The position numbers and the translations under genes were made by a program. This document shows, piece after piece, positions 1-59,279 of a DNA stretch of 64,000 nucleotides. The stretch comes from Eremomyces bilateralis CBS 781.70 (taxonomy: Eukaryota > Ascomycota > Dothideomycetes > Eremomycetales > Eremomycetaceae), in assembly GCF_010015585.1 (NCBI RefSeq), contig NW_022985069.1, positions 1,233,038-1,297,037 on the forward strand. The letters are read 5' to 3'. The notes under the pieces are model-generated. The model saw only the letters and a list, made by a program, of their open reading frames with translations, had not been told where the DNA came from and searched no databases. Position 1 is the stretch's first letter, and each line of letters opens with the position of its first letter.

Positions 1-271
1 TACTATATCTATCCTCTATCTGCCGTCTGTACAGTGACGTGAATCGCGCTTCGGTAGCCTCGAGGACTGCATCGTACTGTACCAATGCCGTGAATGCTTT
101 TCTAACCCGGCTGGTGCCATGTTCCCAAGTCATCCAAGGGTTCATTGGTTGCAGTCGCAAATCGACCTATATTGCCTCTCTAAATCAGTCTTCAACCACA
201 CCCAAGATCACATCTCTGGCACCACCAAGCCCACCAGAACCGTCATATTTTGGGCCTCTGGTCTCCTTCCT
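1..271. other. Intergenic, nothing recognised
   Basis: This stretch lies downstream of the dehydratase gene and before the window edge. Short open frames exist on both strands, but none resembles a family I know and none has a plausible exon structure. It probably holds the 3' untranslated region of the minus-strand neighbour. Confidence 0.5.
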
Positions 272-1299
272 TCAAATCTTCTGCTTCCCCCTCGCCGCCT
301 TTCGCCTCTGCTTCATCATGTGCGTATACATGACATAGCTCCCGGGCACATAGATCGCCAGAATTGCATACAGCGCCGCGGGGAGGGCCGGATGCAGGTT
401 CCCCGCATCGGCGATGGCGGAGTAGATGCACGCGCACTCGGAGACGATGCCGAGCGGGTAGAGGATGAAGAACGTGTTGTACCTACAGAGTAAAGTCGTC
501 GTGAGTTCACGTTCGAATTCTATATGGAAAAACTCCGATCCCATCCATTTCCTCATGCAGGATTTTGGAAGGGATAGGAAAGATGAAGCTGGGTAAGACG
601 CACCGTAACCCTTGGATAAACCCAGGCACACCCCGCCCGGAGAGCTGGAACACGAAGTACGCGTACCGCACCACTTCGGTGATGCTCCACGCGAGCAGCA
701 TGGTCACATAGAAGGGGTTCGTGGAGGTCGCGCTGGGGATCCAATAGGCGATCGGCCAGACGAGGAGGATGCGGGAACCGATTTGTATCAGCGTGGTGAG
801 GAGGGCGGAGCGGACGAAGCCTGGGGTTGGTTAGCTGCGGTAAGGTTGCTATAGAGGAAAAATTGTAGTCGATATAGCTCGGCGTTATATACACATTAAG
901 TGACTTGTAGGGCATGGGGGATTGAAGTGCAATAATACAGAGGTTATGGCGCGTTGTTGCCAATGAGGAAAGAACCAAAAATAAAAATTGACTGTACAAG
1001 GAAATTTCTCTTGGAAGCATCGACTCGAGACTTGATTTTGACATATTCCTTAGGACCAATTCAAACATTGCCGAAGTAGAAATAAAATCCCAATTCCAAT
1101 ACATACCGAATAGCACGTGTCCAATCTCCAACATCATCGCGCTCTGCGTCCACCGCACAAACTCCTCATTCACCTCGTACACATGCCGCCAACCTGCGAC
1201 CTGCGTAATCAGCACCACGCGCACCAGCACGGCGAACCATGCGAGCAGGGAGAGGAAGTTGTAGAGCTGGAGATACGCGGTTTTGTAGGTGGTCGCCAT
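272..1299 (-). CDS. PHS1: Very-long-chain (3R)-3-hydroxyacyl-CoA dehydratase (PHS1/HACD family)
   Basis: Seen: three coding exons at 1299-1107, 820-604 and 482-272 with GT-AG introns join in frame to 206 aa, close to the usual ~220 aa. The protein is hydrophobic throughout with several membrane segments. It carries the family signature RYNTFFILYPLGIVSE near the C-terminus, in which Tyr145 and Glu152 match the catalytic Tyr/Glu pair of yeast Phs1 with the same 7-residue spacing. The C-terminus is Lys/Arg rich (MKQRRKAARGKQ), like an ER-retention tail. Family knowledge: this ER membrane enzyme carries out the third step of the fatty acid elongation cycle, turning 3-hydroxyacyl-CoA into trans-2-enoyl-CoA for sphingolipid precursors. 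Intron 1 is long for this window (286 nt). It has no in-frame stop, but its length is not a multiple of three. Some fungi keep two paralogues, and I cannot tell which this is. Confidence 0.9.
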
Positions 1300-1728
1300 G
1301 GTGGGTGAGGGTGGAAGGGTCCCCGGTAGTCGAAGGGGGAAGGGAAGGGAGGTTTATTAGTGGAATTGGTTGGATGGAATGATGGTCCGTTTGGGCATGG
1401 CACACGGAGGAATTATCTTTTATGTGGTGGGCAATTGAACAAATGCAGACGATTGGAAAGTTGGCGTCGTGAAGAGCTTGTTTGGGAGACAGGGATTCCG
1501 GTTTAGGACGATCGACAAGAAGTTCATCGGACGGGGTTGGGCTGAAAGGGAGCGTCTTGGCGATATGGTAGACGTCAATCATTATTTCTTAATCCATTCA
1601 ATAATGTCTCAACTTATTATCTATTTATCTCAACCTATTATTTTAATCTCGTTCTTTGCAGACATTTAGTGAGTATAATGACTGAACACTTCTATCTCGA
1701 TATCTCGCAGGTCATGGATTCTCCACAA
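1300..1728. other. Intergenic, promoter side of the dehydratase gene
   Basis: About 430 bases separate the dehydratase start from the end of the decayed kinase-fold gene. There is an AT-rich patch with TTATT repeats around 1600-1660. No gene is recognised. Confidence 0.4.
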
Positions 1729-2596
1729 CTAGTACCATACACAATCAGAGTACAAATCTTTGAAATGCCACGCTAGAGAGGCCTGCCTACAAAATTGGCT
1801 GATGTACACCCAGCCGTGGTTACTACCACACATAGAGTCAACAGTTAATGCTGTAAGCGCCCTTTCACTCTTCATTACATCCATGTACTCAGCTCCTCCA
1901 AGCCTTGAAGCAAAATCATACCACCAATTATCCGTCGGACAGAATCTCATCGCCGTTGTAAACTCCCAATACGTAGGATACCAGCCGGCGGACTCCCAGT
2001 CGATGAACCCCGAAACATGGTCTTTGTAGACCATTATATTGGGCTACTTTAGATAACCATGCGTGAAGACGATGTCGTGGTGCTTGGACTCCATCTTTTT
2101 CGCAATAGCAAGGCTCTCGTCCTTCAATTCTCGATTCGGGAATCCATGAAATCCAGGACCAGTCGAGGGCTTGAGGAGGCAGTTGTTGAATTCGGATTCA
2201 TCTTCGCATGGCCCGATCAAATGACTGGGAGCACGCACACTTCTGATGGGTCCCCAAACAATAGAGCAGATGCGTTCATCCTTCCAAGGACTGGGCCAAT
2301 CCCGCATAACATGTAGCATGGTCTGCAGCTCTGTGAATATGCTTTCTCGCTCTTCATCACTGAGGTCCTTGTAAGCCTCTCCAAACTCCTTTCCCGGTAA
2401 ACGAGTCATGAGAATAGATACCGGTGCGAGTGGACAGTCGGGATGACCTCCGTAGGAAATAACCTTTGGCATTGGAAAGCTAGCGGAACGAGCAACTCTC
2501 ATCGCCGTAACCTCCTCAAGTCGAGTGCTATCGAACCATTTGAGTACCAACCTGAATGGGAGCCGGACAATTTGATTATCGAATTTGATCCCAGTC
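1729..2596 (-). pseudogene. Decayed aminoglycoside phosphotransferase-fold (APH) gene
   Basis: Seen: minus-strand reading gives VRLPFRLVLKWFDSTRLEE, then PVSILMTRLPGKEFGE, GPIRSVRAPSHLIGP, IVFTHGYLK, a TAG stop at about 2041-2043, then in the same frame PNIMVYKDHVSGFIDWES and WYPTYWEFTTAMRF. These blocks match the fungal APH-fold family, in which the catalytic loop normally reads THGDLxxxNIMV and the metal site is the Asp of FIDWES. Two lesions hit the same place: the catalytic Asp is replaced by Tyr (HGY), and the stop codon falls 3 residues later. Upstream of about 2596 the frame also closes and no clear N-terminal exon is visible. Inference: this is a host kinase-like gene in early decay, because the rest of the domain is well preserved. 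A sequencing error could explain the stop but not the Asp-to-Tyr change as well. Confidence 0.75.
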
Positions 2597-3401
2597 TAAG
2601 GGCAATAATAACGATAGGAGAAGGGAACAAGGTAAGAATGGACAATACCCAAGAGTCGGCAGACAATTCAATGAGCAAGCCGTCCTGGCTGCGGACAACT
2701 CGAACTCAGCAGGACCGCTCCGAGAAGGTGATGAGATCCAGTGAAGTTTGGGAGGAATATCCTTGGGATTAGGTAGTGTAGCCACCCCACATGGGATACA
2801 ACAGGAATTCAAACATCGCTCGAGGAACAGTAGGCCAAAAATCGGTAACGACGAGAGATGAAAGATTGCAACAAGATAGGAGCGGTAAAACGCCGAATAT
2901 AAAACATATTCGTGAGTCGTAAATCGAGACACCTCGGAAGTTTCGAGGATTAACTACTGGTAGCCTTATTTTTGAAAGGGTTCATTTTCTAAAATATGTC
3001 TGCCTATGATAGGGATCTGGCGCACGCTGGGAGTGCTTCGAGCAGAAAGTTCGATCATGAGTTGGGGATCACTGCATTGTGGCTCAATTGTACTGAGAAG
3101 TGGGTGGCTATTGTCCGCGGCGCAATTGCTGCGTGGTTAGACAGAATGGCAATATTTAAACGTATGTTGTGTCCTACCTTTAGGGTATAGTAGAGTAATT
3201 TCATGTTATATGGTAGTTTATTTGTACAATGCTCAGTTAACTCGAGACATTGAGCTTGGTCCCCTGATAAATCGGCCATTCCTATGCTCAAGTTCCATGA
3301 ATATCTTAGAAATACACTGCGCAGAAGACACCGAGCAATGAACCTCTCTCATGTATTGGGGATCGGCAATATCACCCGAGATCGAACAAGCGAGTCAAGT
3401 C
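2597..3401. other. Intergenic, nothing recognised
   Basis: Low-complexity AT-rich spacer with small open frames on both strands. One minus-strand hydrophobic frame (2576-2932) may include remains of the kinase-fold gene's N-terminus, but I could not align it. Confidence 0.4.
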
Positions 3402-4955
3402 TCATCGTCTATGCTCATGGCCGCAGTCGTGTCCCGCAGCTGGGGGACCAGCTCCTGGGCGACCACTTGGAGAACCACTTGGAGAACCGCCAGGGGAGCC
3501 ACTTGCGGAGCCACCTTCTGTGCCTGGGAGACCACTTGGTGAGCCACTCGGGACGGCTCCTGGGACGCCAGGGGGGAAAACCCCTGGGACTCCGGTTGGA
3601 ACGCCACCTGGGAAACCACCTGGGAAACCACCAGTTGGGAAACCACCCGGGAAACCGCCTGGGAAACCACCAGTTGGGAAACCCCCTGGGAAGCCACCGG
3701 GGGGACCTCCTAGGCCTCCTGGGAAACCGGCATTTTCGTTCAGCTTGCATCCGTCATCTCCACACTCTGCCGCGGCCATCACGTTTTCCCTGGAGTAGGT
3801 AGTATCAACGCCCACGGTAATCCACGAGAAGATACCATCAGCCGCGGTATCTCCGAGGTACACGTACTCCATGACTGGGTCATGTTGCCCGCTGGCAGTC
3901 TGCGCCATGATTCCATCTTGTTCATTTGTGGTGAGGCGCGCAGTGTTGGTGTTGTACGGCGCATTGGCCTCGACCTCGCCGATGAGGGACTGGTCGAAGA
4001 AGAGCTGGCCGACGTGGGAGACGTTGCCTTGGGTGATGCGGTTGTTGGCGAGCTTCTCGTAGTTGAGGTGGGTCATCACTTTCGGTCAGTTAGTATTTTC
4101 GCCTCTGCGGGAAGAAAGGAGGGAGAAAAACTAACCGTGGATATGGACGGCGCGGCCCGTGTAGTGGCCTGGGAACTTCGACTCGAACGTGACAACACCG
4201 TCGTCGCTTGTGATTTGGATTCCACGCAAGGCAGTCTTGTTGATGAGGGTCGTGTCAGCCTCGTCGCCATTCCCCATGAACCCGCCGGCTGCGACGCCGC
4301 CGTACACTCCTGTGGCGTTACAGTGCCAGAAGTCAATGGCGGCGTCGGGAATGGGTTCACAGGTATTGATATCAATGAACTGAATGTCGGTAATGAGGTC
4401 GACACCCTCTTCCTGTTCGACCAGGTTAGACCGGATAACCTCACCCGAGACGTCTGTTGGTTGTCAGTGTCTGATTCTGAGCCGAAGTGTCTATTAAACT
4501 TACAGTATGGACCTTCTGTCGTCTCAGGTGCCAGCACCGTCTCATTGTTGCTGCCGAAGATCGCCTCCACAGACGCTTCCGGCGTGATATTAGTGCCGTT
4601 GTAGCGATGGTTGGTGGACAGCACTTGGCTAAGGTCGCGGGCATGGAGCATGTCCCCTATTTTCCGCGTCAGTCATTTTCGTCCATGCTTTTGCCAACAA
4701 CCTGCACCGCTCACTCCTTGAAAGGCGACGCTTCAGGCGGTGTTCATTAATGAGGGCATTTCTCCTCGCCGCCAATTTCCCACTAACTCCCCGCGCCTTG
4801 AGCTGCTCGGAACAGGCGTCGACCGCTCGCGGTCCGATTGACGCCATGAACTCATTGCGCACGCGCAGCTCTTTGGCGACATCGCCATGAGCGTGAGCTG
4901 CCTCGAACAAGATGGCTGCTTGCAGCACAGCTGCAAGCGGCAGGAACTTGACCAT
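3402..4955 (-). CDS. Secreted intradiol ring-cleavage dioxygenase with Gly/Pro/Phe-rich tail
   Basis: Seen: four exons at 4955-4715, 4656-4504, 4453-4136 and 4078-3402 (introns 51-58 nt) give 462 aa. The start was chosen at MVKFLPLAAVLQAAILFEAAHA, a clean signal peptide. The catalytic domain has TEGPYYVSGE (Tyr131/132), PGHYTGR (Tyr229) and VHIHV (His235, His237), which match the Tyr/Tyr/His/His non-haem Fe(III) ligands of protocatechuate and catechol intradiol dioxygenases. After the domain, from about residue 335, the protein switches to repeats such as GFPGGFPGGFPTGGFPGG, then a Ser/Gly/Pro stretch ending GHDCGHEHRR. Family: extracellular fungal members cleave catechols between the hydroxyls to cis,cis-muconates and are used on lignin-derived aromatics. 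Neighbour: the tyrosinase 1.8 kb away has a similar tail. The substrate cannot be read from the sequence. Confidence 0.88.
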
Positions 4956-5959
4956 ATCGTCTAAATTCTCGTGGTGAAGGATTGGTAGGGAGTCCCTAAA
5001 AAACGAGCCAATAAGTTGACGAAGAGAATCGAATGCGACAAGTCTCTTGATGACTTCACATTTCAATCATCCATACACGGAGGGTAGTGTCATTAAAATA
5101 CCCAAGCATATATTAGAGTCTGAACGACCCCATCGGCCCATCCTAGGATGAGGCATGCAAAGAGTTGGGTATCACCCCATCACCGACAAGGTCGATCAGA
5201 TTAGCAGCCAATACAGTGGCAGCTTGCGTAATCTGGAGCCATGGACGGAGCCATTTCCCCTGATGAGGAGGAAGATCGTGATGTTCGCATCAGGATCTAC
5301 GTTTCGACCCCTTGGCTGCTAACGAATCAACGACCGACAGACGTTTGGATCTTGGGACTAGCCGTTGCGCAAGAGTGCTCGCAATTTAGGGAATCAAAAC
5401 GCGTCAGCCCTCTTGATGACAAGAACGGCGTGGCCGGCGAAACAATATCGACTGGGTGCGGCAGAGATATGACGGCAATCTATGTCAAGCTGGTCTGGCG
5501 TTTCATGATATCAGAATCGGCCCGGAACCAGTGTGCAATTGTAGGGATTTAACTTAATATCAATGGGTTAGCGGACAGCGGCTCTAAAGTCAATAAGCTT
5601 CTCTCGGCATTTATACTTTATATTGACCTTTCAACGAACACGTGAAGCCTCTCTCGACTGAAAGTGATCGTCATGTTTCAAGTTCGAAGTTTCAACGGCC
5701 TCCCAATCTCGCACAATAGGAACAGCTGCGGGGTTAGAGATCTTCGCAAAGCTGAAAAGTATTTAACACCTGATACATTCTAGAAAGAAGCTAGGTTCGA
5801 TGACTTCGATTTTCCTATCTGCGGCTAACCAAAGCTAACGAAGAGGAGAAAACAAGGGAGAATTATTACAGACCTCAGATGCTGTTGGCGATGCCAATCG
5901 CTGATAATTACTGCAGCAGCGGCCAATCACGATCAATCAATTTGATCATACTTTAAGGT
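4956..5959. other. Intergenic, upstream of the dioxygenase
   Basis: The likely dioxygenase promoter lies here. A plus-strand open frame at 5241-5552 (103 aa) has no recognisable motif and no support as a gene. Confidence 0.4.
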
Positions 5960-6201
5960 CCCTCCGGGGGAGACGAAATTGAGTTACGTTTCTTGGCATT
6001 CCCCTATGCACAGTTCCCACGATCTTAACCAGAACGCGGCGGAGAATTCACCAAAACAGACCTCTAGTAGTTGCTTAGTTAGGAAAAGAGTATACTTTTT
6101 GGTATTATGCTGTTTTTGAGCGAATTGGGCCTGCCTGTGATGGTGGTGATGGTTGGGGGAATGCCAAGAGACGTAACTCAATTTCGCCCCCCCCCGGAGG
6201 G
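5960..6201. mobile_element. MITE-like element with ~46-bp terminal inverted repeats
   Basis: Seen: the left end starts CCCTCCGGGGG and continues through a block with GAAATTGAGTTACGT to CTTGGCATTCCCC at about 6004. The right end, 6155-6201, is its reverse complement, with only a few mismatches and a longer G/C run. About 150 bases of non-coding sequence separate the ends, so the element is about 242 bp. No clear target-site duplication is visible. Inference: a non-autonomous DNA transposon. The superfamily cannot be assigned without further copies. Confidence 0.7.
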
Positions 6202-6736
6202 TCAAGTGCCTGAGGCCAATATACTATGGATATGGGTGCCTTACCTCACCACCTGCACTTGACTCAGACTTGCTCGCTCACTCACTGAGGATACGACAGA
6301 TACCACCATCAATCAGATATGCGTATCAGGGTGTGCAGTTATGCCTAACGTCTTAGAGTCGAACCGCTTACGAAGTTAAATCAAATAATAAATTCATAAC
6401 ACAAAGCCAAGCGCCCAGCGATGACTATGCGATGGGAAGTACCAAGGCACCAGCCCCAGGTGGCTACTCCCTGGTTCATCGATATCACATTCATTTGTTC
6501 CCATATCCGGGGTCGAGAGGTACGGAGTGAGCACTCCGTCGTTAAACATTCAATATAAATTGCTGGAAATAGTAGACCTCATTGGCATGGCTATAGCCCG
6601 GAAATGATGCGTCGTCTACCTAGGTAGCCTAGGAGACTTAAAAAGTGTGTCTATTAGACGCCTAGTCCCGCAAGTATGGATTGTCTTGGAGTAGGTCTAA
6701 TCTCTTCTCCGTGGCCAAGGAGACAAGTCATTCATT
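6202..6736. other. Promoter-side spacer of the tyrosinase gene
   Basis: About 535 bases between the MITE-like element and the tyrosinase start. An AT-rich patch with TATAAA-like sequence occurs near 6550, roughly 185 bases before the start codon. No gene is seen. Confidence 0.35.
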
Positions 6737-8274
6737 ATGATCCTTACTACTGTACTCGCTTGTCTCTTGACATTGAGTCCTGGCCTGGCTGCTCCTTTGG
6801 CTGATCCGCAGACTCACGACGACGGTGAAGGAGGTCACCCACCAGATGGCGTTCACCCACCGGAACCCAAAAAATGTACCGATATAGAGAAAAGAATACC
6901 ATGGTAAATTTCTCGTAAGATTTAACATGATGGTCTCGACACAGCCTGACAACATCACAGGCAAGCGTTGTCCAAGGAAGAGAAGAAGGCGTATATCAAT
7001 GCAGAGCTCTGCCTGATGGGCAAACCCTCCCAACTCGATCTCCCGGGAGCCGTGACCCGGTTCGACGACCTGGTCAAGCCGCATCAGATTCTCGCCGCCA
7101 CGATGCACGGCACCGGGTACTTCTTGCCTTTCCATCGCATGCTCATGCACACCCACGAGCACTTGCTGCGGACCGAGTGCGGTTACGAGGGTTATCAGCC
7201 GTACTGGGCGGAGGAATTGGACATCGGCAAGATCCAAGACTCGGACGTGTTTGATCCCGAAACGGGCTTCGGGGGTGGCGTTGTGGATCAGTTGGTCTGC
7301 GTCCCGGATGGTCCGTTCCAGAACTACACATTGCACACCGGTCCGGGCTTTCAGAACACAGAGTACTGCATCCAGCGCCGTTTCTCCAATGGTGCAACCC
7401 TGGGGGCTCGCCAGGAGTACATTGACCACTGCTACCAATGGGACAAGTTTGAACAGGCATGGCAGTGCATAGAAGATGGCGGTCCACATAACGGCTTCCA
7501 TGGCGGGGTGGGTGGCGTTATGCTTGTATGTGTTATGTCCTAACCCATCGGTCGAGACTGATACTAAGACTGAATTCTCTACAGAACCCCATTTCATCTC
7601 CCGGAGGTATGGCGTACGCACCGTCCATTTTACCGCGCTGACACTCCATAAGATCCGGTTTTCTATCTGCACCACACCTGGCTAGATAAGGTTTGGTGGG
7701 ATTGGTTCGTGCATCCCGATCACTCATTCACATATATCGCTAAGCTATGTTCAGGCAGAAACAAAAGCCAGAGCGCTTGTCCGACATTTCGGGCCGTAAA
7801 ACCTCTAGAAACCCCCTTTTCGGCGCGGGAAGCAATGGAACTGCGCCGCCATTTCCAGGTACGCCCGGATTTCTTTGCCATCCGGACGGCTACTCTAGTA
7901 GGAGAAGGAAAACTGCTAACAGCTGCTCATCTCATAGGATTCCCCGGTGGACTCCCTGATAGATTTCCTAGCTTTCCAGGCAACTTCAGCTTTCCGGGCA
8001 ACTTCACCTTCCCGGGGGGGTTCCCGGGAGGACCTGGAGGCAACCTCAGTGGTCCACCTACATGGAAGCCAACTGATGAGGTGGTAACTGATCCTGTCAA
8101 GCTTGGTGACATATTAACCGTGTTCGACCTTATCCCCAATACCACTATATCCAACTTGATGGATATCCAGGGCGGGTAAGTTCAGCATGTTGTGTTGGTT
8201 TCGTGGCCTGGGCTGACACCGTTAGATACTTTTGTTATGAGTACATTGACTATGCGGATGCTGTCAAGCGTTAA
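6737..8274 (+). CDS. Secreted short tyrosinase with Phe-Pro-Gly-rich tail
   Basis: Seen: seven exons at 6737-6903, 6961-7525, 7585-7606, 7653-7708, 7759-7858, 7938-8175 and 8226-8274 give 398 aa. The N-terminus MILTTVLACLLTLSPGLAAP is a signal peptide. CuA-site histidines lie in KPHQ, TMHGTGYFLPFHR and THEHLL. The CuB site is GPHNGFHGGVGG plus DPVFYLHHTWLDKVWWDW. ERLSDISG follows, as in short fungal tyrosinases. Exon 6 begins exactly where the catalytic homology ends and encodes GFPGGLPDRFPSFPGNFSFP and FTFPGGFPGG, a Gly/Phe/Pro low-complexity tail. Family: type-3 copper enzymes that hydroxylate monophenols and oxidise catechols to quinones (melanin, sclerotisation, defence). Oddities are a 22-nt exon 3 and two possible acceptors for exon 5 (7754 and 7758). 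I chose 7758 because it keeps the ERLSDISG frame. The GFPGG tail echoes the neighbouring dioxygenase. Confidence 0.85.
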
Positions 8275-8712
8275 GCACTGGTCGTGGTTCGGTAAATCGT
8301 TCTACGGTCACTGGTTTGACACTTGCTTGTGGGAAAATGGCTGCCAAAATCATAGTGTAGATCTTGATATTGAATGGAGGATGTGGGGGTTTATAGCTGA
8401 ATTGATCTATCATATGCTGTTTAAAAAATTGAAATGGCTGCTTTCCAGACCCAAACGTTGCTAAGACATTGCAAAACAGGGACATCAGTCGGGCCAGTGA
8501 CACCTGTCCGGTAGTTTGCTAGCGAGAGTATCTCCAACCATATTCATAACGCTCAAATACCCGTATATACCGAAATTAGAGAGGTTCCCTTCAAGTACGA
8601 AAAGTCATCGATACTCGTGATTTTGATCCTCATGTCATGTAACATCATCATCAAGCTGATCGAAAACCCTTCGAGGTGTCTGATAACACCTCAAGCCCGG
8701 TCGCTGGCGCAC
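8275..8712. other. Spacer between convergent tyrosinase and regulator genes
   Basis: Convergent 3' ends face each other here. There is only short AT-rich sequence, most likely the two 3' untranslated regions. Confidence 0.45.
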
Positions 8713-11072
8713 TCATTGAAAGGAAAATTCCACCTGGCCGGGAAAGTCCTCCCAGAACATCAGCGTGGCATCCGTCGCCACCGTGTCAAAGTCAACCATT
8801 TCAAGATCGTAATTCGAGAAATCGAACAAATTCACATCTCCCGGCCACGTTTCCGCGATCGGTGCGGAGGGGCCTACCTGATATGCGTCCGGTGGAACGG
8901 TGGGAATGATGTCTGGTGGCTGCAGCATTTGCTGTGCAGGAGGCTGTAGAATTGGCATTGCGGGCACAGTAGACCCATGCCGTATTACGGAGTCGAGGGC
9001 GAGCGGTTGGGTTGGTGGAGAAACGGAGCGTTTGGCAATAGCGGGTGAAGAGGTGCTTTGCGGTTGTGGAGGGGAGACTTGGTATCCAGTTGGTGATGGC
9101 ATCTGGCATATGTGAGCACGGTCATTCGGACAAGAAAGGGACACGGAACAACGAGAGAAATAGTGGACGGTACTTACAGCGCTGGCTTGAATTTCGGATA
9201 ATGGAGATGGTTCGTCTGCACTACTACTCGCCTGCGGACTGAGGGCTTGTTGAACGGCACCGTAATCCACGAGCGCTTCGCCAAGGGCGGACCGCTCGTC
9301 GGGAGAGACTCCCTCTTTTGGGTTCTGAACCTTGTGATAGAACGCTTGCATGCGCCTGATGGTCTCGAATTGCGCATCGGCCATCGGCCAATGGCCTTTC
9401 ATCTCTCTCAGAAATGAACATCCTCGGTTGACGCGCTCCTTCGCCCGGATGGTGACCGCCGGGTCGTCTTCTGAATCAGAGAAGTTGAGCTGATAGAGCA
9501 TGACGCCGATGGCCGTATAGATCGTGAAACCCGTCCAAGGGACCAAGCCACGGAGGAAGAATAGCCCAAAGCTTCGGATCTCCTCCATCATGTCGCAGAC
9601 CGTAACCGCCGTGTGGTATAACTGCCGTTTCGAGTACCGCTGCCACTCGATCCAGCTCGGATCGTCTTTGCCGGCCAAATAGTTCGGGAAGAGCTTCTGT
9701 TCGGACTGCGGGCCGAGAACCGGAACGTATTGTCGTTGCAGGAACATGACGCTCATAAAGTATATCGAATGCATATAGACGTATGCCTGCCCCTGGTCCA
9801 GCGCACTGTGTCCATGAAGCCCCGATTTACGATACTGCAATCGATGCGGGAGTGACGAGCGCCACTTTTCCAGCTGTTGTGTCAGGATCTGATACTTCGA
9901 ATCCGGATCCCAGGGTAATTGATCTTCTGCATCTCTAGAACAAGCCCATCGCGCAACGTCACCCCATATGTCAGCGACGCGCATGCTGTAGGCAATGAGG
10001 CCCAGTTCTCCGGTCGGAAATCCTAACGAGAGTCCGGAGTTATAACATCCAGGGCTCAATGACTCCGTTCGTACGGCCTCGCCAAAGACAAAGCTGTCTC
10101 TTTCGCAGGGCAATTGCACCTGCATTTCGTCCGCCGACAAGCCTCTCCTCCTCCCCTTCCCACCGCTGAGCAAGCTGTCCATTAAGAAACAGGTCCAGGC
10201 TGTTCGCCGCCTTTCTTCGCTTTCGATAAACTCTTCTTCGGTTAGGGTTTCCATGTCTTTGTATTCACCCTCCTCACAGAGCCGTAGCACCTGAACCATT
10301 CGGACGGCGAGCCCGAGGTACATCCAGGCTTTCTGGCCGTCTCCGGAGCCCCAACTGTGTCCGGTGATCATGAGAAGGGTTTGGATGGTGGTAAGGTCCG
10401 GTACCTCGAGGGAGAGTTGGAGAAGGTTGCGGGCATGAGCGGCGAAGGTGTTGCTGGCTTCGATGGGGGTAGAGAATGGTTCGGGGGCTCTTGTGGAAAA
10501 TCTGAATCGCACTCAGCTTCTTTCCTCGTCTTGAATTGCAGCAGGTTATACACGAACCTTATCGCCAGGGCCAGTATCGCCCATATCACGGCTGGCTCCA
10601 CCTCTTCCTTTCGGACCTTCTTCAACAAGGTCGGCGTATGCAAGAAACTCCACTTGTAGCTACATCTCAAATAACTGTTCTTCACCTCGTCCGTAAAATA
10701 TCTATACGGATTCACGTCCGTCAAATCCACATCCGTCCGCTTCGCCGGTATCCATCCGCCAACCACCTTTCCCTGGTGTTTCGGGTCGATGATGCTCGGC
10801 TTCCCACCATCCTCCCCATCCTGTTGTGGTCCCGGGGACGGTGGGTAATATGCCAATCGCCGGCCGCTGATCTCCCCACCGTCTCGCCCCGATTCTCGCT
10901 GTCGTCTTGCGCTTTTCGTCAGCCGGTGGTGCATGGAGGTGCCCGGCGGAGGAAAATAGCAGGTGTCGCCCCGTCCGAGCGCTCGGCAGCGGTCGCAGGG
11001 AGGGCGGGCGTCATGGTGGATGCATTGCCGCTTTGCGGTGCGGCATGGTGCGCAGGCGATAGGATTTCGCAT
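8713..11072 (-). CDS. Zn2Cys6 transcription factor with fungal-specific regulatory domain
   Basis: Seen: exons at 11072-10558, 10501-9178 and 9102-8713 give 742 aa. The N-terminus holds a Zn2Cys6 cluster with Cys7, Cys10, Cys17, Cys26, Cys29 and Cys38 (CAPCRTAKRQC, CDRC). The middle matches the Fungal_trans domain, including LLMITGHSWGSGDGQKAW and LGLAVRMVQVLRL and the ESEERRRTAWTCFLMD block. The C-terminus is Pro/Gln rich with an acidic aromatic end (VNLFDFSNYDLEMVDFD), typical of an activation region. The second intron (9177-9103, GTAAGT donor) is 75 nt with no stop, so retention would add 25 residues. Family: DNA-binding activators of nutrient or secondary-metabolism genes. Inference: it may control the adjacent tyrosinase and dioxygenase, on proximity alone. 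Confidence 0.88.
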
Positions 11073-14000
11073 TATTATGGCGAGCGGCTACGGATGAGTG
11101 GTGTCACAATGCCGCACTTCGCGGCAGCGTTAGGATCGCCGTCCTGATTGTGGAGGTGAGGCTCGTCTTTTCTCTAATCAAGGTCCTCAGCGCTTGGCCG
11201 AGGTTCGGTGGGGCTTCACTGGGGCTCCAACCAGGGTTCAGGTTGGCTACGATGGTACTGTATAGAAACAGAGAATCATGCCGATATACTGGTATTACTG
11301 CAGATTCCTCTGGATAGAGGACAAAGTTGAGGATTTATATTTGAGCCGACGACCGGAACCACTGAGCGGGACGGGGACGCCCATCGCTTGATGAAGCTGG
11401 GCTTGCATAGAGGCGTAAGGCGAGGGGGAGAGTGGGGTTGCAGGCTTGAAATCGGCCTTTTTGGGGGATGACGTTTGGCGATCGATCTACTGGCTACATA
11501 AGGGACTGACTATTAAAGTATGTAGTTCTGTGCACTTCATGTCGACAACAAAATGCCCCGATCGACCATTTTCTGAACACATTCTCATCTGGGGTGCTGC
11601 TGAGGAACCAGAATGACGCTCTCCGTCAGACTGACGAACAACCGAACAGTCGCAGCCAAGCGCCATGTCTAATTTGCGACAGGGGAGTTGATGGTGGGAG
11701 AGTCGATCATCACCACTTTGGACAAAAGCTTTGGGAACCTCCTCGGGCTCCTGGCTGGTGATCCCATTTGCCAACGATTCCATAGGATATCACTTCGATC
11801 CAAGCCACAACGACCGTGGGTGGACCAAACACTGGATCTTTTCCGATTGATGATAGGGGAGACAGAGGCTGCAACGGATCCAGTGCAATGGCACTATGTC
11901 AATTGTGTAACATTGCCAACACCGAAAGCTAGGCGCTGCAACAGGTATTAAAGCCAATTCTCGGATCTCCATATATAAGCTGATAGTCACAGTTATTGAC
12001 ACGATAAATTGTGTATGCAATGGTATGGCACTCCCGAGATGTACTAAATCGATCGATCTGCACGATGGCACTTTGCAAAGCTGAGCCAGCCAGATATATC
12101 GAAGAGATAAAAGATTTCAACCAAGGATTGGGAGCACTTGATAATGCAGTTTGGCCTATCGCGATATCGGGACCTCGCCTATGGAGCTACCCGTGGCATG
12201 CAGCTAGACCTCGAGATTTTTCCAAGGAACCGCAGCAGAGTCTTCAAGCGAATGTGCCATCTTCATGCGAGTTTCGATGCGAAAATATGATATTAGCGGC
12301 CACCCGATGCCTGATGGAATCGATACCTAGAGTGACTGCAAGAGTGGCGGTTCTAAAGAGCACCGGACGTTTATCTGGGTCTGTGATGCAGTACAGCTAT
12401 CCGAGGACATCGAAGCCATGACCCGCCATTCCTGGTCTAGGCACAAGAATGGCCACACCATATCAGAACGCATCATGAGTTCCGATAATGGAGCAACCGA
12501 ACCTAACAAACGCTGCGGGTAAACGGAGAAGGTAACATTGGCTGTGAGTCTCACCGATCCTTGAACCGATAGCGTGGATCGACATCTTTCATTCTTCGTA
12601 TCCAAAGGTCTGTGTATCCCAATTAGCCAACCACCTTCCAGGACGTGTATGGCTCCGGCCAGACAACACCCGACAGTGAGGCAAACGAACAAAACCGGTT
12701 TTGGCGAAATGACAACGAGAAAAGTGGCAGAAACATCCGAATCAGGCGGAGCAAAACTTGAGGATATCGCCGGTCGCTGGCACAGCCGACGCCGCCTCGA
12801 CTGAAGGTTGTAAATATAGCGAATCGAGAGATTTCAATATTCAAAATAGCTCAGTGCAACTCAGGAGCGACAGCAGCCAAGAAGAAATGCGACCCAATCG
12901 CACGCGCAGACAACTGAAAATTCAGGCATGAAATTGCTTTTGCTTTTTACTGGACTGTTATATCGCTAGGTTGTATCGGTATCTGAAGAAAGGATCTAAT
13001 TAGGGTGAGCGAAGGAAGGACATTGTTACGGTCGCTGGAACGGACACTCTTCTGCCCCTTTTTATTAATTGTTGAAGAGAAACTCTAGAAAGCTGCTGGG
13101 AAAGGTAATGGCTGTGATGATCATGTCTTGGTCCTCAGCATAGAAGAAATCCCTCTGGGCTGTTGTCAATTACTTGAAGCTAGTTGAAGGGATACTGCAA
13201 CGGTCCTCTTTGCTGTTAAGGAGCGGCCATTCGGGAGACTGAAATATTGACCCCTTGGGCTAACAAAGTCGTTGATACCGTACAATACCCCGATGTTCAT
13301 AAAGGCGGGCTAAGGGGATGTACTTATGTTGACGTACAGACTCGTGTCACGATCAATCACGATCTGATGGACGTGGAGAGGTTGCCTAAGGCACTCGACA
13401 CGATATCACCAGGCATCAAGCCTAGTCCACTACAAACCTTAACATCAATCCAACCCACCTTCATAATTACAGGAAATCATCTCCACATGAGTTGAGATTG
13501 ATGACGCATGGTGGCGCCTCGCTAAAATTTTATCAATACGGATCTCCGTAGGGCTCCATCCAAGACCATCCTGATGGTGATGAAGTGATGGCCAGACCAG
13601 AAAGCCTCACTTCATACCTACCTTACCTAATTAGCGCGATTTCACGTACCTCGAAGACTACTAAGTATGGTTCCAAACAATTCCTCTTAGGACCGACGGA
13701 TCCTTGTTTTGCAAAACCCCCCAGTGATGAACACTTAGCGTCTAATTCCACTTGGATTCTTCCTTGCTGTCACAACTGCTGTTGAAGTACCGGTTAAACA
13801 CCCGTTAGACGGGAAAATCTATTCCTGTGCGGAGCAGCCCGCCAAAGAACTACTGTGTTATGAAGGGGATTAGCACGTCACTCTATTTAAATCCGCTAAC
13901 TTCTATCAACTGCGATCGATCGAGCCCTCGAGCTAAACGTCTCCTATGTTCCGAAAATATTCGATATTGAACAAACAGTCAATAGGAAATGGCGTTGTCC

Positions 14001-52094: not shown

Positions 52095-53324
52095 GTATAC
52101 TGGAATAAACTCAGAAGGTATCTTATATGAAAACGGAAATCAAAGATGGCAGTGGATTCCATAAGTGCTATTCAGATGATCGAAGGACGTAAAATACAAG
52201 CTTTTGACTGAAGCAACAGAGTTCGGATTGAGATTGATCCCTTGAGAAGGGAAAAGTGGAAGGAAAGGAAGAACGAAAATTCTGAAAGAACATTTAAGTT
52301 CACATCGACTTAGCCATCCTCATCACGACTCGCAATTCACTAAAGTCATATGGTTACGGTGTACGTTCATCCGTTTGCTCAATGTGCCAGTCATTTTGGT
52401 CCGCATCAGGGGTCGTATTGTCCGTTTGTCAATCGGAGCTTACACAGAGCGTTGACCTGGGTTGACTTGTGGCCAAAGGACTGGAAATGGAAGAAAGACG
52501 AATATAACTAGACGGAAATGAAGGGCTCGAATTGATTGAAGTGAGAGGCCAATGGATAATGGAGACTGATGGATAGAAAGGCGGTGTCACGATGTATCAT
52601 GTGAAACTGATATCTGCGTACACCTTCCAGCTTGTGACAAAGTTGACTGGGAGACTGAGAACGTGGGCAACGCAACTCAAAGAAGCGAGAATGCGAGGCG
52701 CTGAGAGAGTGTGAGAGAGGGCAGGATCTGACTGAGTGTGTAGGATAAGTAAACGACCAGTGAGAATGCCTGAGCTGTATCCACCCTCATTCTTATTCCA
52801 ATCAAATCAGTGTGGTAATGACTGCAAAACAGTCGAGAGAGGAGCAGCCAACCAACAATTTGATCGTTAGGGCGTTGTCGAATGATGAGTGTATCTGAAG
52901 CGATGGACACTGAGAAAAGAACGGCTTAAGGTAGGTATGAGTGTGAAGGTAAAGGCGGTAAAGGTGATGAAGGTAAGGAAGGTAAAGAAGGAATGCTAAG
53001 GTTAGTTAAACTGAAGGTATATATCAAGTGCGAGTAGGATCGATTAAAGAACAATTCATTTGGCGTAGCAAGGTCCCTCCCTCTCTGCTGAAAAACTAAT
53101 ATGCGCAGGTTAGAAGGGATCCCGTAACATAGAGATTGTAATTATATGCGGACAGGATCGAGTCGATTCCGCAAGATATCCATCATGAATCTCATAGGAA
53201 AGCATAAACCTTGTCCGAACCAGTCGCAGAGCAGCGCACGCCTTTGAAAATGCCGTCAAATGAAGCATCGAATCATCCAGTAGTCATAACGGTCGTCCCC
53301 CCTCACTTCCTTCTCTTCATTTCT
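52095..53324. other. Intergenic, nothing supported
   Basis: AT-rich spacer with purine-rich runs (GGTAAAG/GGTAAGG-type near 52930-53000) before the assembly gap. No recognised gene. Confidence 0.35.
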
Positions 53325-53402
53325 TCAAATAGTCCGACAAACTCCTGCTCCTCCGCCCCTTACTCCGACTCCGACTCCGATCCCTCCCCCTCTCATCATC
53401 TC

Positions 53403-54252
53403 NNNNNNNNNNNNNNNNNNNNNNNNNNNNNNNNNNNNNNNNNNNNNNNNNNNNNNNNNNNNNNNNNNNNNNNNNNNNNNNNNNNNNNNNNNNNNNNNNN
53501 NNNNNNNNNNNNNNNNNNNNNNNNNNNNNNNNNNNNNNNNNNNNNNNNNNNNNNNNNNNNNNNNNNNNNNNNNNNNNNNNNNNNNNNNNNNNNNNNNNNN
53601 NNNNNNNNNNNNNNNNNNNNNNNNNNNNNNNNNNNNNNNNNNNNNNNNNNNNNNNNNNNNNNNNNNNNNNNNNNNNNNNNNNNNNNNNNNNNNNNNNNNN
53701 NNNNNNNNNNNNNNNNNNNNNNNNNNNNNNNNNNNNNNNNNNNNNNNNNNNNNNNNNNNNNNNNNNNNNNNNNNNNNNNNNNNNNNNNNNNNNNNNNNNN
53801 NNNNNNNNNNNNNNNNNNNNNNNNNNNNNNNNNNNNNNNNNNNNNNNNNNNNNNNNNNNNNNNNNNNNNNNNNNNNNNNNNNNNNNNNNNNNNNNNNNNN
53901 NNNNNNNNNNNNNNNNNNNNNNNNNNNNNNNNNNNNNNNNNNNNNNNNNNNNNNNNNNNNNNNNNNNNNNNNNNNNNNNNNNNNNNNNNNNNNNNNNNNN
54001 NNNNNNNNNNNNNNNNNNNNNNNNNNNNNNNNNNNNNNNNNNNNNNNNNNNNNNNNNNNNNNNNNNNNNNNNNNNNNNNNNNNNNNNNNNNNNNNNNNNN
54101 NNNNNNNNNNNNNNNNNNNNNNNNNNNNNNNNNNNNNNNNNNNNNNNNNNNNNNNNNNNNNNNNNNNNNNNNNNNNNNNNNNNNNNNNNNNNNNNNNNNN
54201 NNNNNNNNNNNNNNNNNNNNNNNNNNNNNNNNNNNNNNNNNNNNNNNNNNNN
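53403..54252. other. Assembly gap (850 N)
   Basis: A run of exactly 850 undetermined bases. It falls inside or beside the Arg/Asp-rich minus-strand gene. Any reading across it is not real sequence. Confidence 1.
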
Positions 54253-54461
54253 GGAGGATAGCCTTCGTGGTCGCGGCCGTGGGGTGGGGGAGGGGGGTCA
54301 TAGGCGTCCCGTTCGCGTTCGCGTTGACGGGAACGGTGACGGGGACTGGGGGAGTATGGTGGTGGGTTGTCGTGGCGGTTATCGTAGCGGTCGTCGTAGC
54401 GGTCGTCGCGATGACGACGGGGTGGACCGGCGTCGTAGTCGTCGTAGTCGTGTCGAGCCAT
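54253..54461 (-). CDS. Arg/Asp/Tyr-rich low-complexity protein, N-terminal part only
   Basis: Seen: 69 residues from MARHDYDDYDAGPPRRHRDD through PPPYSPSPRHRSRQRERERD to HGRDHEGYP, where the gap begins. The composition (Arg, Asp, Tyr, Pro, with DDRYDDRYD repeats) suggests a disordered protein of the kind seen in fungal RNA-associated or unknown proteins. On the far side of the gap (53325-53402, minus) a Gly/Val-rich coding-like stretch could be its C-terminus, but frame and identity are unknown. Length, introns and function cannot be judged. Confidence 0.5.
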
Positions 54462-55604
54462 CTTGGAGATTGATTGATGCTTTGGAATTGAGGTTAAGAG
54501 GTGAAGTTGGAGGAAGGATTGTTTTTTACAGGACTCAGGTTCAACTGAATTTGCAGGTCATGCAGGCAAAGTGGAGGGGAGTGTGGCTGTGGCACATGCA
54601 ACGGTCACAGTGCAGATCTGGTGCGTCATCAGGTGAGCTGGCGGGATATCTGATGGCGTCTCTGAAGTCTTAGGGAGATTTCGGGTTGGAGATTTGGAGG
54701 GGCAGGTGGGTTCCGGAAGAGCTGTCCCGCTGTTGGGATTAATTATGGGATTAATAAATGGTACATCATAATTCATAAGGGGCATGAATTGCCTTGTCAC
54801 CTGCATGAGGCATCGCTTTAGTCGTGATAGAAGCCGAGCGGAGGTTCAAAGATCTATAAATAATATTATTTAAAGCTTTGGTTTAGACATTTAAGGGGCA
54901 GGAACAAATACACGCGCCAAAGCAGGAACCGCAGCTTCAAGGAGAGATATTCTGGGATTGCCCTGAAGTTGACCATACCATGGGAAGTCTTTTCGCTTGA
55001 GTTATGGTATAGATACGGATCCATCGTGATCATACTTCCGTAATGTCCGCGCCGGGGCCTATCTCTCCCTTTCCTCGTCACCGGAGTAGCCCAGAAATTA
55101 TGTGGTACACTTCTTTTCCAGTCTACAGAGCTTAGAGATCAAGCTGTACGTCGACGTGGAGAGGGAGGACTATGATGATGTCTGGAACCAACGCCTAGTA
55201 CACAGCGCTCCTTGGGACTGTGAGCGATCGAAGAGGTGTTGGGACTTTGGAGGACTCCAGAGGATTGAAAACGTGGATAAGCTTATCCAGAACAGGATTC
55301 GCAACAAGATTTTGTACTGGGATAGTTGCATGTTCATAGTGCGAGAACAGAGACACCAATGGTCCTGATCACTGAACGGACCATTGGTATAACTTCAAAA
55401 TATGATCCGTACGGTACCAAGTAATCTGAACTGTAAATCCTCGGACCTGAATGAAAACGAGAAATCTGAACAACGGGGTATCCTCAACATTAAGCTCCAA
55501 TCCAGTGGAAGATCAAATGTCGACATCGTGAATCCCATCAAACCCATACGCACATCCGCGTATACATTCACTCTCCACAACACCACCATAATATCAAACT
55601 TCAC
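54462..55604. other. Intergenic, nothing supported
   Basis: Promoter side of the Arg/Asp-rich gene, then AT-rich spacer. Small frames at 55102-55368 and 55402-55617 have no recognised features. Confidence 0.4.
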
Positions 55605-57190: not shown

Positions 57191-58951
57191 CTAATCCTCC
57201 TCAACAGTCATGAATTCCTCCTCGTCCACCGCATATTCTTCGGGCACTACGGGATTCAAGAAGTCCTTGTAGGGAGTAGCACCCTCATATAGGACCTCCT
57301 CGTTCACTGACGATTCCGATTCCGATTCCGAGTCCGAGTCTGACCTAGCACTCTGCGGTTCCTTATTACGAACCCAACGAAGCGCCCTATCGGGGTTATG
57401 GTCAAAGTTCGGGTCGCAGGCCAGGCTGCGGAATCTCCTACAGGGTTGCCGTTGCTGAGCCTCCTGTTTCTGGCCCTTCTCTTCTTCCGTTTTCCGCTCT
57501 ACGTTCACTAGGTATTTTATCGTGAGTTCCTTGTGATGCATGGCCTCCCAATCCGGGCTAGATGCTCGTAGCTGCCGCTTAAACCGCCGCTGGCAGGTTC
57601 CACCTAGGGGATCGCTGTTTTGGGATTTCGCGGTCCCGCTCTGAACCCCGAGCGTGGCCCAACTCTCCCGCCCGCTGTTCCGACTGGCTTCACGGCGGGC
57701 CCTCCGCAGGTTCCGGTCGTACTCCCGATCTTCTTGGACTTGGGCCCGGCGGACCGCTGCCACTTGTTCTTCGCTTTGGGTCAGCGTCTCCATGCTGTTG
57801 ATGGTGTCGCGCCAGACACGGATGTATCGGGCCGAGGTCTCGGGAGCGCGCAGGCGATCTCGTCGGTTGTTCTGGGCGACTTGCGCATCATCTACTTGGC
57901 CCTCTGCTAGAACTTCGCCGCCGTCGTGGGCGAGGTAGGAGGGTTGGTCGGGGGCTTCTAGAATCACACGGATTGCGTCGGCGGCGCGTTCGAGTTCGAA
58001 TCCGATGCGCTGGAAATGGTTAGCGATCACCAATGTCAATGGCGAATTAGCTAGGCATACTCTCTGCATGTTTAGCATTCCGGCATTGTTACCCGTGTAC
58101 ACTGGCAGCATCCAACTCTCGACTTGGAGTCCCCCCTGGGCAGCTTCTGGCTGGGTGTTTTCGCGCCGTGCTGAGGGTGTATCATTGACCAGGGCAGTTA
58201 GCCGTTCAGCCTCCCTATCTGCTAGATTTTGCCTCATATTCCGAGCCTCCTGATCTAATACATCGGCATCGGCATTACCCGCATTGTTACCACGCAACAT
58301 CCTTGCCTGCTCCTCCCGTAACCTAGCAGTTTCAAGTGTTCTGGCACGATTGAGTCCGGGGAGATTCCGGCCCCAATCTCTATTGCGACGCACGGTTTCC
58401 AACCTATCTATGATTCGATCGGTCCCCCTAGTATCCTCGGGATTGTTACTCTTAGGACTGTTTGACCTTCGGCGTTGCGAGGCTCGTTCCCCTTCAGCCT
58501 CATCATCGGCTGGGCGTTTGCATGGGCATACACCGACGCCTGCTGGCCCCCGTTCGCCTCGAGCTCCTTGCGCTCCCGGCTCCCCTTGTGGCCCCTGTTC
58601 GCCTCGAGGTCCTGGAGGCCCTTGATCCCCTTGATCCCCATGCTCTCCTTGTGGCCCTTGGGCACCCATAGATCCGGTCGCCCGTTGCGCTGCCTCTAGG
58701 GCTCCTTGTGACGAAGTTCGCGCCGCGGTGGCGTGTTTTTGCGCATCCTGTTCCGCCGTTCGGACACCATCTTCCACCATTCGGGCACCTCGCGCCGCTG
58801 TGGTCTGCTGTTGCGCCCCCTGTTCCACGGCTTGGGCTTCTCTTAGCGTTTGAGCTGCTGTCTTTCTGGGAGGCTTAGGGGGAGACTTAGTGAGCGTTTT
58901 ACCAGTCTTGGTGGGCGTTTTGCCAGTCCCGGTGGTCTTTTTAGGACCCAT
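57191..58951 (-). CDS. Collagen-like (Gly-X-Y) repeat protein, 586 aa
   Basis: Seen: one uninterrupted frame. Residues 1-30 are Lys/Thr/Pro rich (TGTGKTPTKTGKTLTKSPPK). Residues 33-92 are Ala/Gln/Glu rich and probably coiled-coil, including two related AQxxxxAAR units. Residues 93-140 hold 16 uninterrupted Gly-X-Y triplets (GPQGEHGDQGDQGPPGPRGE), the collagen triple-helix pattern. CPC and a basic KRPADDEAEGERASQRRR follow. Residues 150-420 are a long charged helical region with one less polar block (VESWMLPVYTGNNAGMLNMQ). The C-terminus is acidic (SDSDSESESESS, then EEFMTVEED). No signal peptide. The codons are less GC biased than those of neighbouring housekeeping genes. Family: not recognised. 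Collagen repeats are rare in ascomycete proteins. Inference: an intracellular or structural homotrimer; a recently acquired or mobile-element-borne gene is possible. Confidence 0.7.
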   Translation of the reverse strand: MGPKKTTGTGKTPTKTGKTLTKSPPKPPRKTAAQTLREAQAVEQGAQQQTTAARGARMVEDGVRTAEQDAQKHATAARTSSQGALEAAQRATGSMGAQGPQGEHGDQGDQGPPGPRGEQGPQGEPGAQGARGERGPAGVGVCPCKRPADDEAEGERASQRRRSNSPKSNNPEDTRGTDRIIDRLETVRRNRDWGRNLPGLNRARTLETARLREEQARMLRGNNAGNADADVLDQEARNMRQNLADREAERLTALVNDTPSARRENTQPEAAQGGLQVESWMLPVYTGNNAGMLNMQRVCLANSPLTLVIANHFQRIGFELERAADAIRVILEAPDQPSYLAHDGGEVLAEGQVDDAQVAQNNRRDRLRAPETSARYIRVWRDTINSMETLTQSEEQVAAVRRAQVQEDREYDRNLRRARREASRNSGRESWATLGVQSGTAKSQNSDPLGGTCQRRFKRQLRASSPDWEAMHHKELTIKYLVNVERKTEEEKGQKQEAQQRQPCRRFRSLACDPNFDHNPDRALRWVRNKEPQSARSDSDSESESESSVNEEVLYEGATPYKDFLNPVVPEEYAVDEEEFMTVEED

Positions 58952-59279
58952 TTTGGTACAAGTAAATCAATTTTGTGCCAGTAGCAGCGGCCGATAGGTC
59001 AAGGGTCAAACTTGCGGTCGTCGTTGAGCCAACCGTGGGGTACTTGGCCTTCTGGAGAGGTTCAATGCTATGATTGCGAGAAAGATAGGTAGCGAAGAAG
59101 AAAAGAGATCGATCATACTGGAACCAATGGACTGGACCGATAGTTAGGAGAAGACGATCTCTTTGAAGGAAAAGGAAGCTTTGTTCTCGACTTGGACGAA
59201 AACGGAAGACTTGAGGGTAAGACAATGCATGTCATATGTAGAGGAAAGACAACGCTATTGAGAATTCGGAGTAACCTTC
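58952..59279. other. Upstream region of the collagen-like gene
   Basis: About 330 bases between the start codon and the left inverted repeat. Nothing recognised. Confidence 0.4.

Follow-up and report, generated by a model that had tools for sequence, protein, structure and literature searches.

A divergent pair of secreted-type intradiol dioxygenase and tyrosinase genes, present twice in the genome of Eremomyces bilateralis, with GFPGG stretches in one copy that look convergent

We analysed a stretch of 64,000 nucleotides from the genome of the dothideomycete Eremomyces bilateralis CBS 781.70 (contig NW_022985069.1; hereafter the window, C3:1233038-1297037 in the contig numbering used here), in which the genes for an intradiol ring-cleavage dioxygenase and a tyrosinase-like enzyme, both of secreted type, stand back to back, each encoding a stretch rich in glycine, proline and phenylalanine with repeated GFPGG motifs. 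Short introns and Fungal_trans regulators in this DNA are signs of a filamentous fungus. On sequence comparison, this pair is present twice in the genome. Each gene is closest to its counterpart in the other pair, and for most of the period after the two pairs parted purifying selection acted on both. We consider it probable that the window holds an old, divergent but separable gene pair, whose secreted products act on a common pool of phenolics and whose low-complexity GFPGG spacers evolved independently. An earlier note on this DNA had proposed that the two stretches are tails of the same kind, exchanged between the genes or serving a joint function.

Table 1. Features of the window discussed in the text, in window coordinates
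Feature	Position	Strand	Basis or remark
Secreted-type intradiol ring-cleavage dioxygenase, 462 aa	3402..4955	-	Spliced model, four exons
C-terminal low-complexity tail of dioxygenase, aa 355-462	3402..3728	-	Sequence composition, repeats
Region between divergent genes	4956..6736	.	Genes 1.8 kb apart
MITE-like element, ~240 bp, terminal inverted repeats ~44 nt	5961..6200	.	Between the two genes
Secreted short-tyrosinase/catechol-oxidase-like enzyme, 398 aa	6737..8274	+	Spliced model, seven exons
Gly/Pro/Phe insertion in tyrosinase, aa 294-341, 48 aa	7828..8050	+	Exon 5 end 7828-7858, exon 6 7938-8050
Returning domain sequence with tyrosine motif YEY (YxY)	8051..8274	+	Exon 6 end and exon 7; 6z1s alignment; conserved in C22 copy
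Zn2Cys6/Fungal_trans regulator gene	8716..11087	-	Neighbour of tyrosinase, convergent with it

Searches of the genome (26.6 Mb in 62 contigs; paralogue counts from protein searches are lower bounds) located a second divergent pair, with its genes about 1 kb apart, on contig C22 (dioxygenase at 309.4-310.5k on the minus strand, tyrosinase at 311.75-313k on the plus strand). The window and C22 are 71.7% identical over 1083 nt of dioxygenase DNA and 73.2% identical over 855 nt of tyrosinase DNA. On C22 the tyrosinase gene is intact and encodes 374 aa; its seven exons and their phases correspond to those of the window copy, and the main exon of the window gene is 74% identical to it, while other tyrosinases reach at most 55% in any piece. 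At the amino acid level, the window dioxygenase is 72.8% identical to that on C22, 65.9% to that on C12 and 48.1% to that on C5, and a tree of these four genes joins the window and C22 copies as sisters (100% of 200 bootstraps), while the approximately unbiased (AU) test rejects the other quartets (p 0.020).

The second dioxygenase is broken, with 7 in-frame stops, three of which (codons 163, 250 and 267) lie in well-aligned sequence, and its exons also carry a 1-nt deletion and a 5-nt insertion. Its branch is about four times as long as that of the window gene (0.27 vs 0.07), which fits a loss of constraint some time ago. Between the two pairs, the ratio of nonsynonymous to synonymous divergence (dN/dS) is 0.106 for the catalytic part of the dioxygenase (dS 1.67, 251 codons) and 0.137 for the tyrosinase core (dS 1.20, 241 codons), both values being rough because dS exceeds 1 and is near saturation. 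Low ratios in both genes point to an old linkage and, together with the C22 pair and its stops, to an old duplication of the linked pair, a long period of selection and the later death of one dioxygenase.

Little else is common to the two regions. In a blastn comparison of window positions 1-12000 with 9.5 kb of C22, only an inverted-repeat element was found in common besides the pair; the two intergenic regions gave no match with E up to 1e-3, and the one match runs from the window element to sequence beyond the C22 dioxygenase (73% over 90 columns, at 2922-3006 of L025, a piece of contig C22). The pair could be a neutral leftover of two unrelated secreted-enzyme genes, adjacent by chance, copied once as a segment and bound by no functional link, as might be suspected from the broken C22 dioxygenase beside an intact neighbour, from two other secreted-type dioxygenases with no tyrosinase match nearby and from a regulator that was not duplicated with the pair. 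Against this, dN/dS is low in both genes across a long divergence and the adjacency has survived twice although nothing but the inverted-repeat element is otherwise shared; we regard a neutral leftover as unlikely, though it keeps some weight. About 2 kb beyond the C22 tyrosinase, frames for a zinc knuckle, a reverse transcriptase with RNase H and an integrase (C22:315001-320666) appear, by domain order, to form a Gypsy-type retroelement, whose presence may have some relation to the breakdown of the dioxygenase on C22.

Spliced models bear out both window genes, their strands and their places as first described, and both proteins begin with a hydrophobic N-terminus that, by eye, resembles the signal peptide attributed to it. 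The dioxygenase is encoded by exons 4955-4715, 4656-4504, 4453-4136 and 4078-3402, and its core matches solved spider-mite enzymes (6bdj, E 9.8e-35, 6bdj_A residues 117-296; 5vg2, E 1.9e-34). The whole protein scores 23.4 bits against PF00775, below the curated cut-off of 27.3, a threshold that we do not treat as defining for the secreted type, of which a solved member is clearly matched. In the alignment with the mite enzyme, its segments GPYY and GHYTGRAVHIH cover Tyr131, Tyr229, His235 and His237, two Tyr and two His that we take to be the iron ligands. The tail of 108 residues (36% Gly, 22% Pro, 8% Phe) consists of six GFPGG units followed by PSG/GSP repeats and the end GHDCGHEHRR; the description of a protein ending in GFPGG-type repeats is thus right for the first part of the tail and not for the later repeats and the Cys/His-containing end. 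The DNA of the tail holds many repeat copies, mostly at steps of 12 and 15 nt, and the tail contains no N-glycosylation sequon.

The tyrosinase (exons 6737-6903, 6961-7525, 7585-7606, 7653-7704, 7755-7858, 7938-8175 and 8226-8274) matches PF00264 (E 2.4e-35) and, among solved structures, best 4j3p (E 2.2e-31), 6z1s (E 5.1e-30) and 4j3q (E 8.7e-30); we take 4j3p to be the catechol oxidase AoCO4 of A. oryzae, and 6z1s to be the tyrosinase-like protein TtPPO or a variant of it. All six copper-binding His are present (97/105/114 and 232/236/259). There is no C-terminal lid domain, and a CYEY at 386 precedes the protein end at 398. The Gly/Pro/Phe stretch (27% Gly, 23% Pro, 19% Phe) carries four N-glycosylation sequons (NGT, NFS, NFT and NLS) and an 18-nt unit present twice (7970-8005). 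It is followed by 57 residues, of which aa 357-391 align with residues 371-405 of 6z1s in a segment that is weak alone (4.9 bits) and lies inside a strong overall match. Because conserved domain sequence ending in the YxY motif comes after it, the stretch is, on this alignment, a loop insertion within the catalytic domain and not the tail that had been described. Nor does the end of catalytic homology coincide with the start of an exon: the first residues of the insertion (SNGTAPPFP) are encoded within exon 5, and the domain sequence returns while still in exon 6.

Loop lengths obtained for six of nine tyrosinase loci (C5:1253k and C2:1935k not being among them) set the window and C22 copies apart, with 130 and 117 residues, respectively, from the CuB His to the tyrosine motif, compared with 65, 69, 69 and 72 in C4, C2-328k, C2-1654k and C19. 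A long loop is so far specific to the tyrosinases of the two pairs. The C8 tyrosinase loop is short by eye, but split by an intron. At 104 nt, exon 5 of the window tyrosinase exceeds the corresponding C22 exon (74 nt, 7056-7129 of L025) by 30 nt. Its end is where the coding of the insertion begins, which may reflect a shifted donor site.

The GFPGG motif itself is real and locally unusual. The dioxygenase tail has six copies of it and the tyrosinase stretch two, and the longest peptide common to both is FPGGFPGG, eight residues, a length reached in 5 of 2000 shuffles of both stretches and in none of 500 in a repeat run; the shared motif reported earlier is therefore upheld. Genome-wide, the GFPGG codon pattern is found in 47 places, against 17 for a reversed-pattern control, and eight of the 47 fall in the two window genes (the first tyrosinase match begins one base inside an intron, and splicing restores the same Gly). 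The remaining listed matches lie tens of kilobases or more apart, save one overlapping double match on C11, and all four genomic matches to the longer GFPGGFP codon pattern are in the window dioxygenase.

One account of this sharing is that the stretch was copied between the neighbours, by ectopic gene conversion or exon capture, and kept for binding the same wall or melanin-like matrix. In its favour are the common octapeptide and the fact that the only genes in the genome with repeated GFPGG codons stand 1.8 kb apart. At the DNA level, however, no trace of copying is apparent. When synonymous codons were permuted within each stretch, the longest shared word averaged 10.8 nt, and 930 of 1000 draws reached the 9 nt observed. 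Identity at third positions over all GFPGG pairs is 0.283 against a null of 0.281, with 1038 of 2000 draws reaching the observed value. Codon choice is unlike in the two stretches (Phe TTC 9/9 vs 5/9; Pro CCA 16/24 vs 3/11), and local repeat units differ in length between them. The setting differs as well, the tyrosinase stretch being an insertion inside the domain with sequons and the dioxygenase stretch a tail without them, and the C22 pair has no common GFPGG motif: nothing longer than GLPS is shared there, a length that 70 of 500 shuffles attain, and GFPGG is absent from the C22 tyrosinase loop. With word length and third-position identity both at the synonymous null, we rejected the exchange of tails put forward in the earlier note and hold copying in general to be very unlikely; as judged from these sequences, the likeness looks like convergence.

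Gly-rich C-termini are found on all four secreted-type dioxygenases located in the genome (C3, C22, C5 and C12). That of the broken C22 gene reads GFLGGFSSGLLSGFLSG..., that of the C12 gene GGGFGLLGGLAGLFGGFGGRGN and that of the C5 gene GMGGGPGGPDGPGGSGGPGGPPSGG. No tyrosinase match was found near the C5 or C12 gene, and ten chosen frames around the C22, C5 and C12 dioxygenases showed no phenol oxidase by Pfam. Gly-rich tails are thus found both beside a tyrosinase gene and away from one, which goes part of the way towards the independent occurrence of tails named beforehand as evidence against a link. Among eight comparisons of a tail with a loop, a common peptide of over five residues is confined to the window pair; the C5 tail and the window loop have GGPGG in common, reached by 33 of 500 shuffles. 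No such tail was seen on three further PF00775 genes (C1, C21 and C2), which by eye are of the intracellular catechol-dioxygenase type. A frame near the C5 dioxygenase matches a short-chain dehydrogenase.

Copper enzymes of this family make o-quinones from phenols and o-diphenols, and the non-heme iron enzymes open o-diphenol rings. Under the reading we prefer, an old pair with independently evolved spacers, both enzymes would act extracellularly and draw on one supply of phenols and o-diphenols of plant type, the tyrosinase oxidising phenols and o-diphenols to o-quinones and the dioxygenase opening the ring to yield muconate-type acids; one substrate would be divided between two fates, with no product handed on. 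The GFPGG spacers would have grown separately by local tandem slippage, one as a C-terminal tail and the other as a loop bearing glycosylation sites. The loss of the dioxygenase on C22 suggests that the tyrosinase needs no dioxygenase beside it.

A more elaborate version of this scheme holds that the two enzymes form a conserved extracellular module, whose competition for the same o-diphenols decides how much becomes quinone polymer and how much ring-opened acid, and that in the window copy GFPGG converged through retention of both proteins in one matrix; we would give it little credence. A joint function for the stretches, as proposed in the earlier note, finds no support in a C22 pair that lacks the motif, in sequons confined to the tyrosinase or in tails that occur with no tyrosinase neighbour. 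The enzymes could instead act in sequence, the tyrosinase hydroxylating monophenols to o-diphenols that the dioxygenase then cleaves. Both tyrosinase copies do have Asn after the first CuB His (GPHN), a residue presumably linked to monophenolase activity. Yet the tyrosinase reaction continues as far as o-quinones, compounds that are no substrate for cleavage by an intradiol dioxygenase, and the release of catechol would need a reductant. Since the usual tyrosinase product is the quinone, such a relay becomes less likely, and we think it improbable; the label of a catechol-producing oxidase is doubtful for the same reason. The position after the first CuB His is the one altered in the G292N variant of TtPPO (PMC6238066).

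Several observations, besides the roughness of the dN/dS values, weigh against an old pair with independently evolved spacers. The sharing of FPGGFPGG exceeds what composition predicts, and repeated GFPGG codons are confined to two genes that happen to be neighbours, a coincidence that convergence alone leaves unexplained. The DNA-level comparisons are blind to any exchange old enough for synonymous sites to have saturated. In places the C12 dioxygenase comes nearly as close to the window gene as the C22 copy does (44-75% by exon, with 75% in one exon). Given its longer branch, the C22 dioxygenase may have been released from constraint at an earlier time than its low dN/dS would imply. Finally, the age and spread of the linkage are judged from one genome.

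The regulator gene that follows the tyrosinase matches PF04082 in its frame at 8716-10512 (E 9.6e-23), while the N-terminal frame at 10371-11087 has no Pfam match and shows a Zn2Cys6 spacing by eye. Its other matches in the genome are 22-47% identical and none is on C22, so the regulator was discarded as a member of the duplicated module; a role in governing the pair is putative, with the GAL4-type regulator beside CDO4 in Ceratocystidaceae (PMC8896014) speaking in its favour. The small phenolics module of three genes envisaged at the outset is in this way strengthened as to the linked pair, by the C22 copy and the sister dioxygenases, with the regulator outside the duplication. The element between the two genes, which resembles a miniature inverted-repeat transposable element (MITE), has 26 other copies that cover at least 200 of 286 query bases at 76-98% identity, and copies up to 98% identical suggest a recent insertion.

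A Pfam scan of ten chosen window frames, comprising nine of the 31 frames of at least 230 aa and one of 183 aa, turned up no gene of the muconate or quinate pathways, although one belonging to such a cluster may have escaped among the other 22 frames of that length. The ten frames gave two Fungal_trans matches, one PUL/thioredoxin protein and one collagen-repeat match, with six frames blank, and a broader catabolic cluster in the window is not supported by them. The collagen-repeat match (PF01391, E 5.4e-8) is in a 591-aa frame at 57194-58966 on the minus strand. Open frames at 1729-2595, also on the minus strand, resemble a phosphotransferase-type gene by eye, the frame scanned there (2044-2595) having no Pfam match, and six overlapping open frames of 323-446 aa occupy both strands at 53208-54670.

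Secreted fungal enzymes can carry proline- and glycine-rich linkers and tails. The stretches described here resemble these in low complexity, tandem slippage and glycosylation sites; they differ in that repeated GFPGG codons are found in only these two genes of the genome. The tyrosinase resembles the short enzymes 4j3p and 6z1s in lacking a C-terminal lid and ending in a tyrosine motif. It differs from 6z1s by 46 more residues between the CuB region and the C-terminal segment, and from four paralogues by 58-65 more, rich in Gly, Pro and Phe and with four sequons. Its copper-His spacing equals that of TtPPO, except that the last is one residue shorter at a one-residue gap (PMC6238066).

The dioxygenase is comparable to CDO4 of Ceratocystidaceae and the mite DOG enzymes (6bdj, 5vg2) in its hydrophobic N-terminus, its core domain and its alignment over the four iron-ligand positions, and differs from them in its long Gly/Pro/Phe C-terminal tail. 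In Ceratocystidaceae, secreted CDO4 is described with a signal peptide; its gene is duplicated in Endoconidiophora and in many genera adjoins genes of quinate catabolism (PMC8896014). The AHG that follows the N-terminus of the window dioxygenase may be compared with ASA-HP in CDO4, which likewise has a GAL4-type regulator beside it in Ceratocystidaceae, as listed in a figure legend (PMC8896014). The neighbour of the window dioxygenase is a tyrosinase, whereas the Fig. 5 legend of the CDO4 study places genes of quinate catabolism, among others, beside CDO4, and its main text nowhere contains the word tyrosinase (PMC8896014). The secreted dioxygenase family of mites reportedly came from fungi, and cleavage of procyanidins and caffeate-type compounds is reported for secreted relatives from fungi or bacteria (PMC9167512). 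Of the open-licence papers listed for the two enzymes together, none, to judge by the listing, treats such a pair, and an earlier description may exist elsewhere.

The shared motif matters less than first proposed, since it looks convergent, while the linkage of the pair is supported and is older than could have been known from the window alone. The C22 copy constitutes a natural experiment, having kept its tyrosinase while losing the dioxygenase. The loop insertion indicates that a long segment bearing glycosylation sites may be accommodated by the short tyrosinase fold ahead of the tyrosine motif. Should the linkage hold across fungi, the pair would represent a two-gene system for the extracellular steering of plant phenolics, towards quinone polymers on the one hand and ring-opened carbon on the other.

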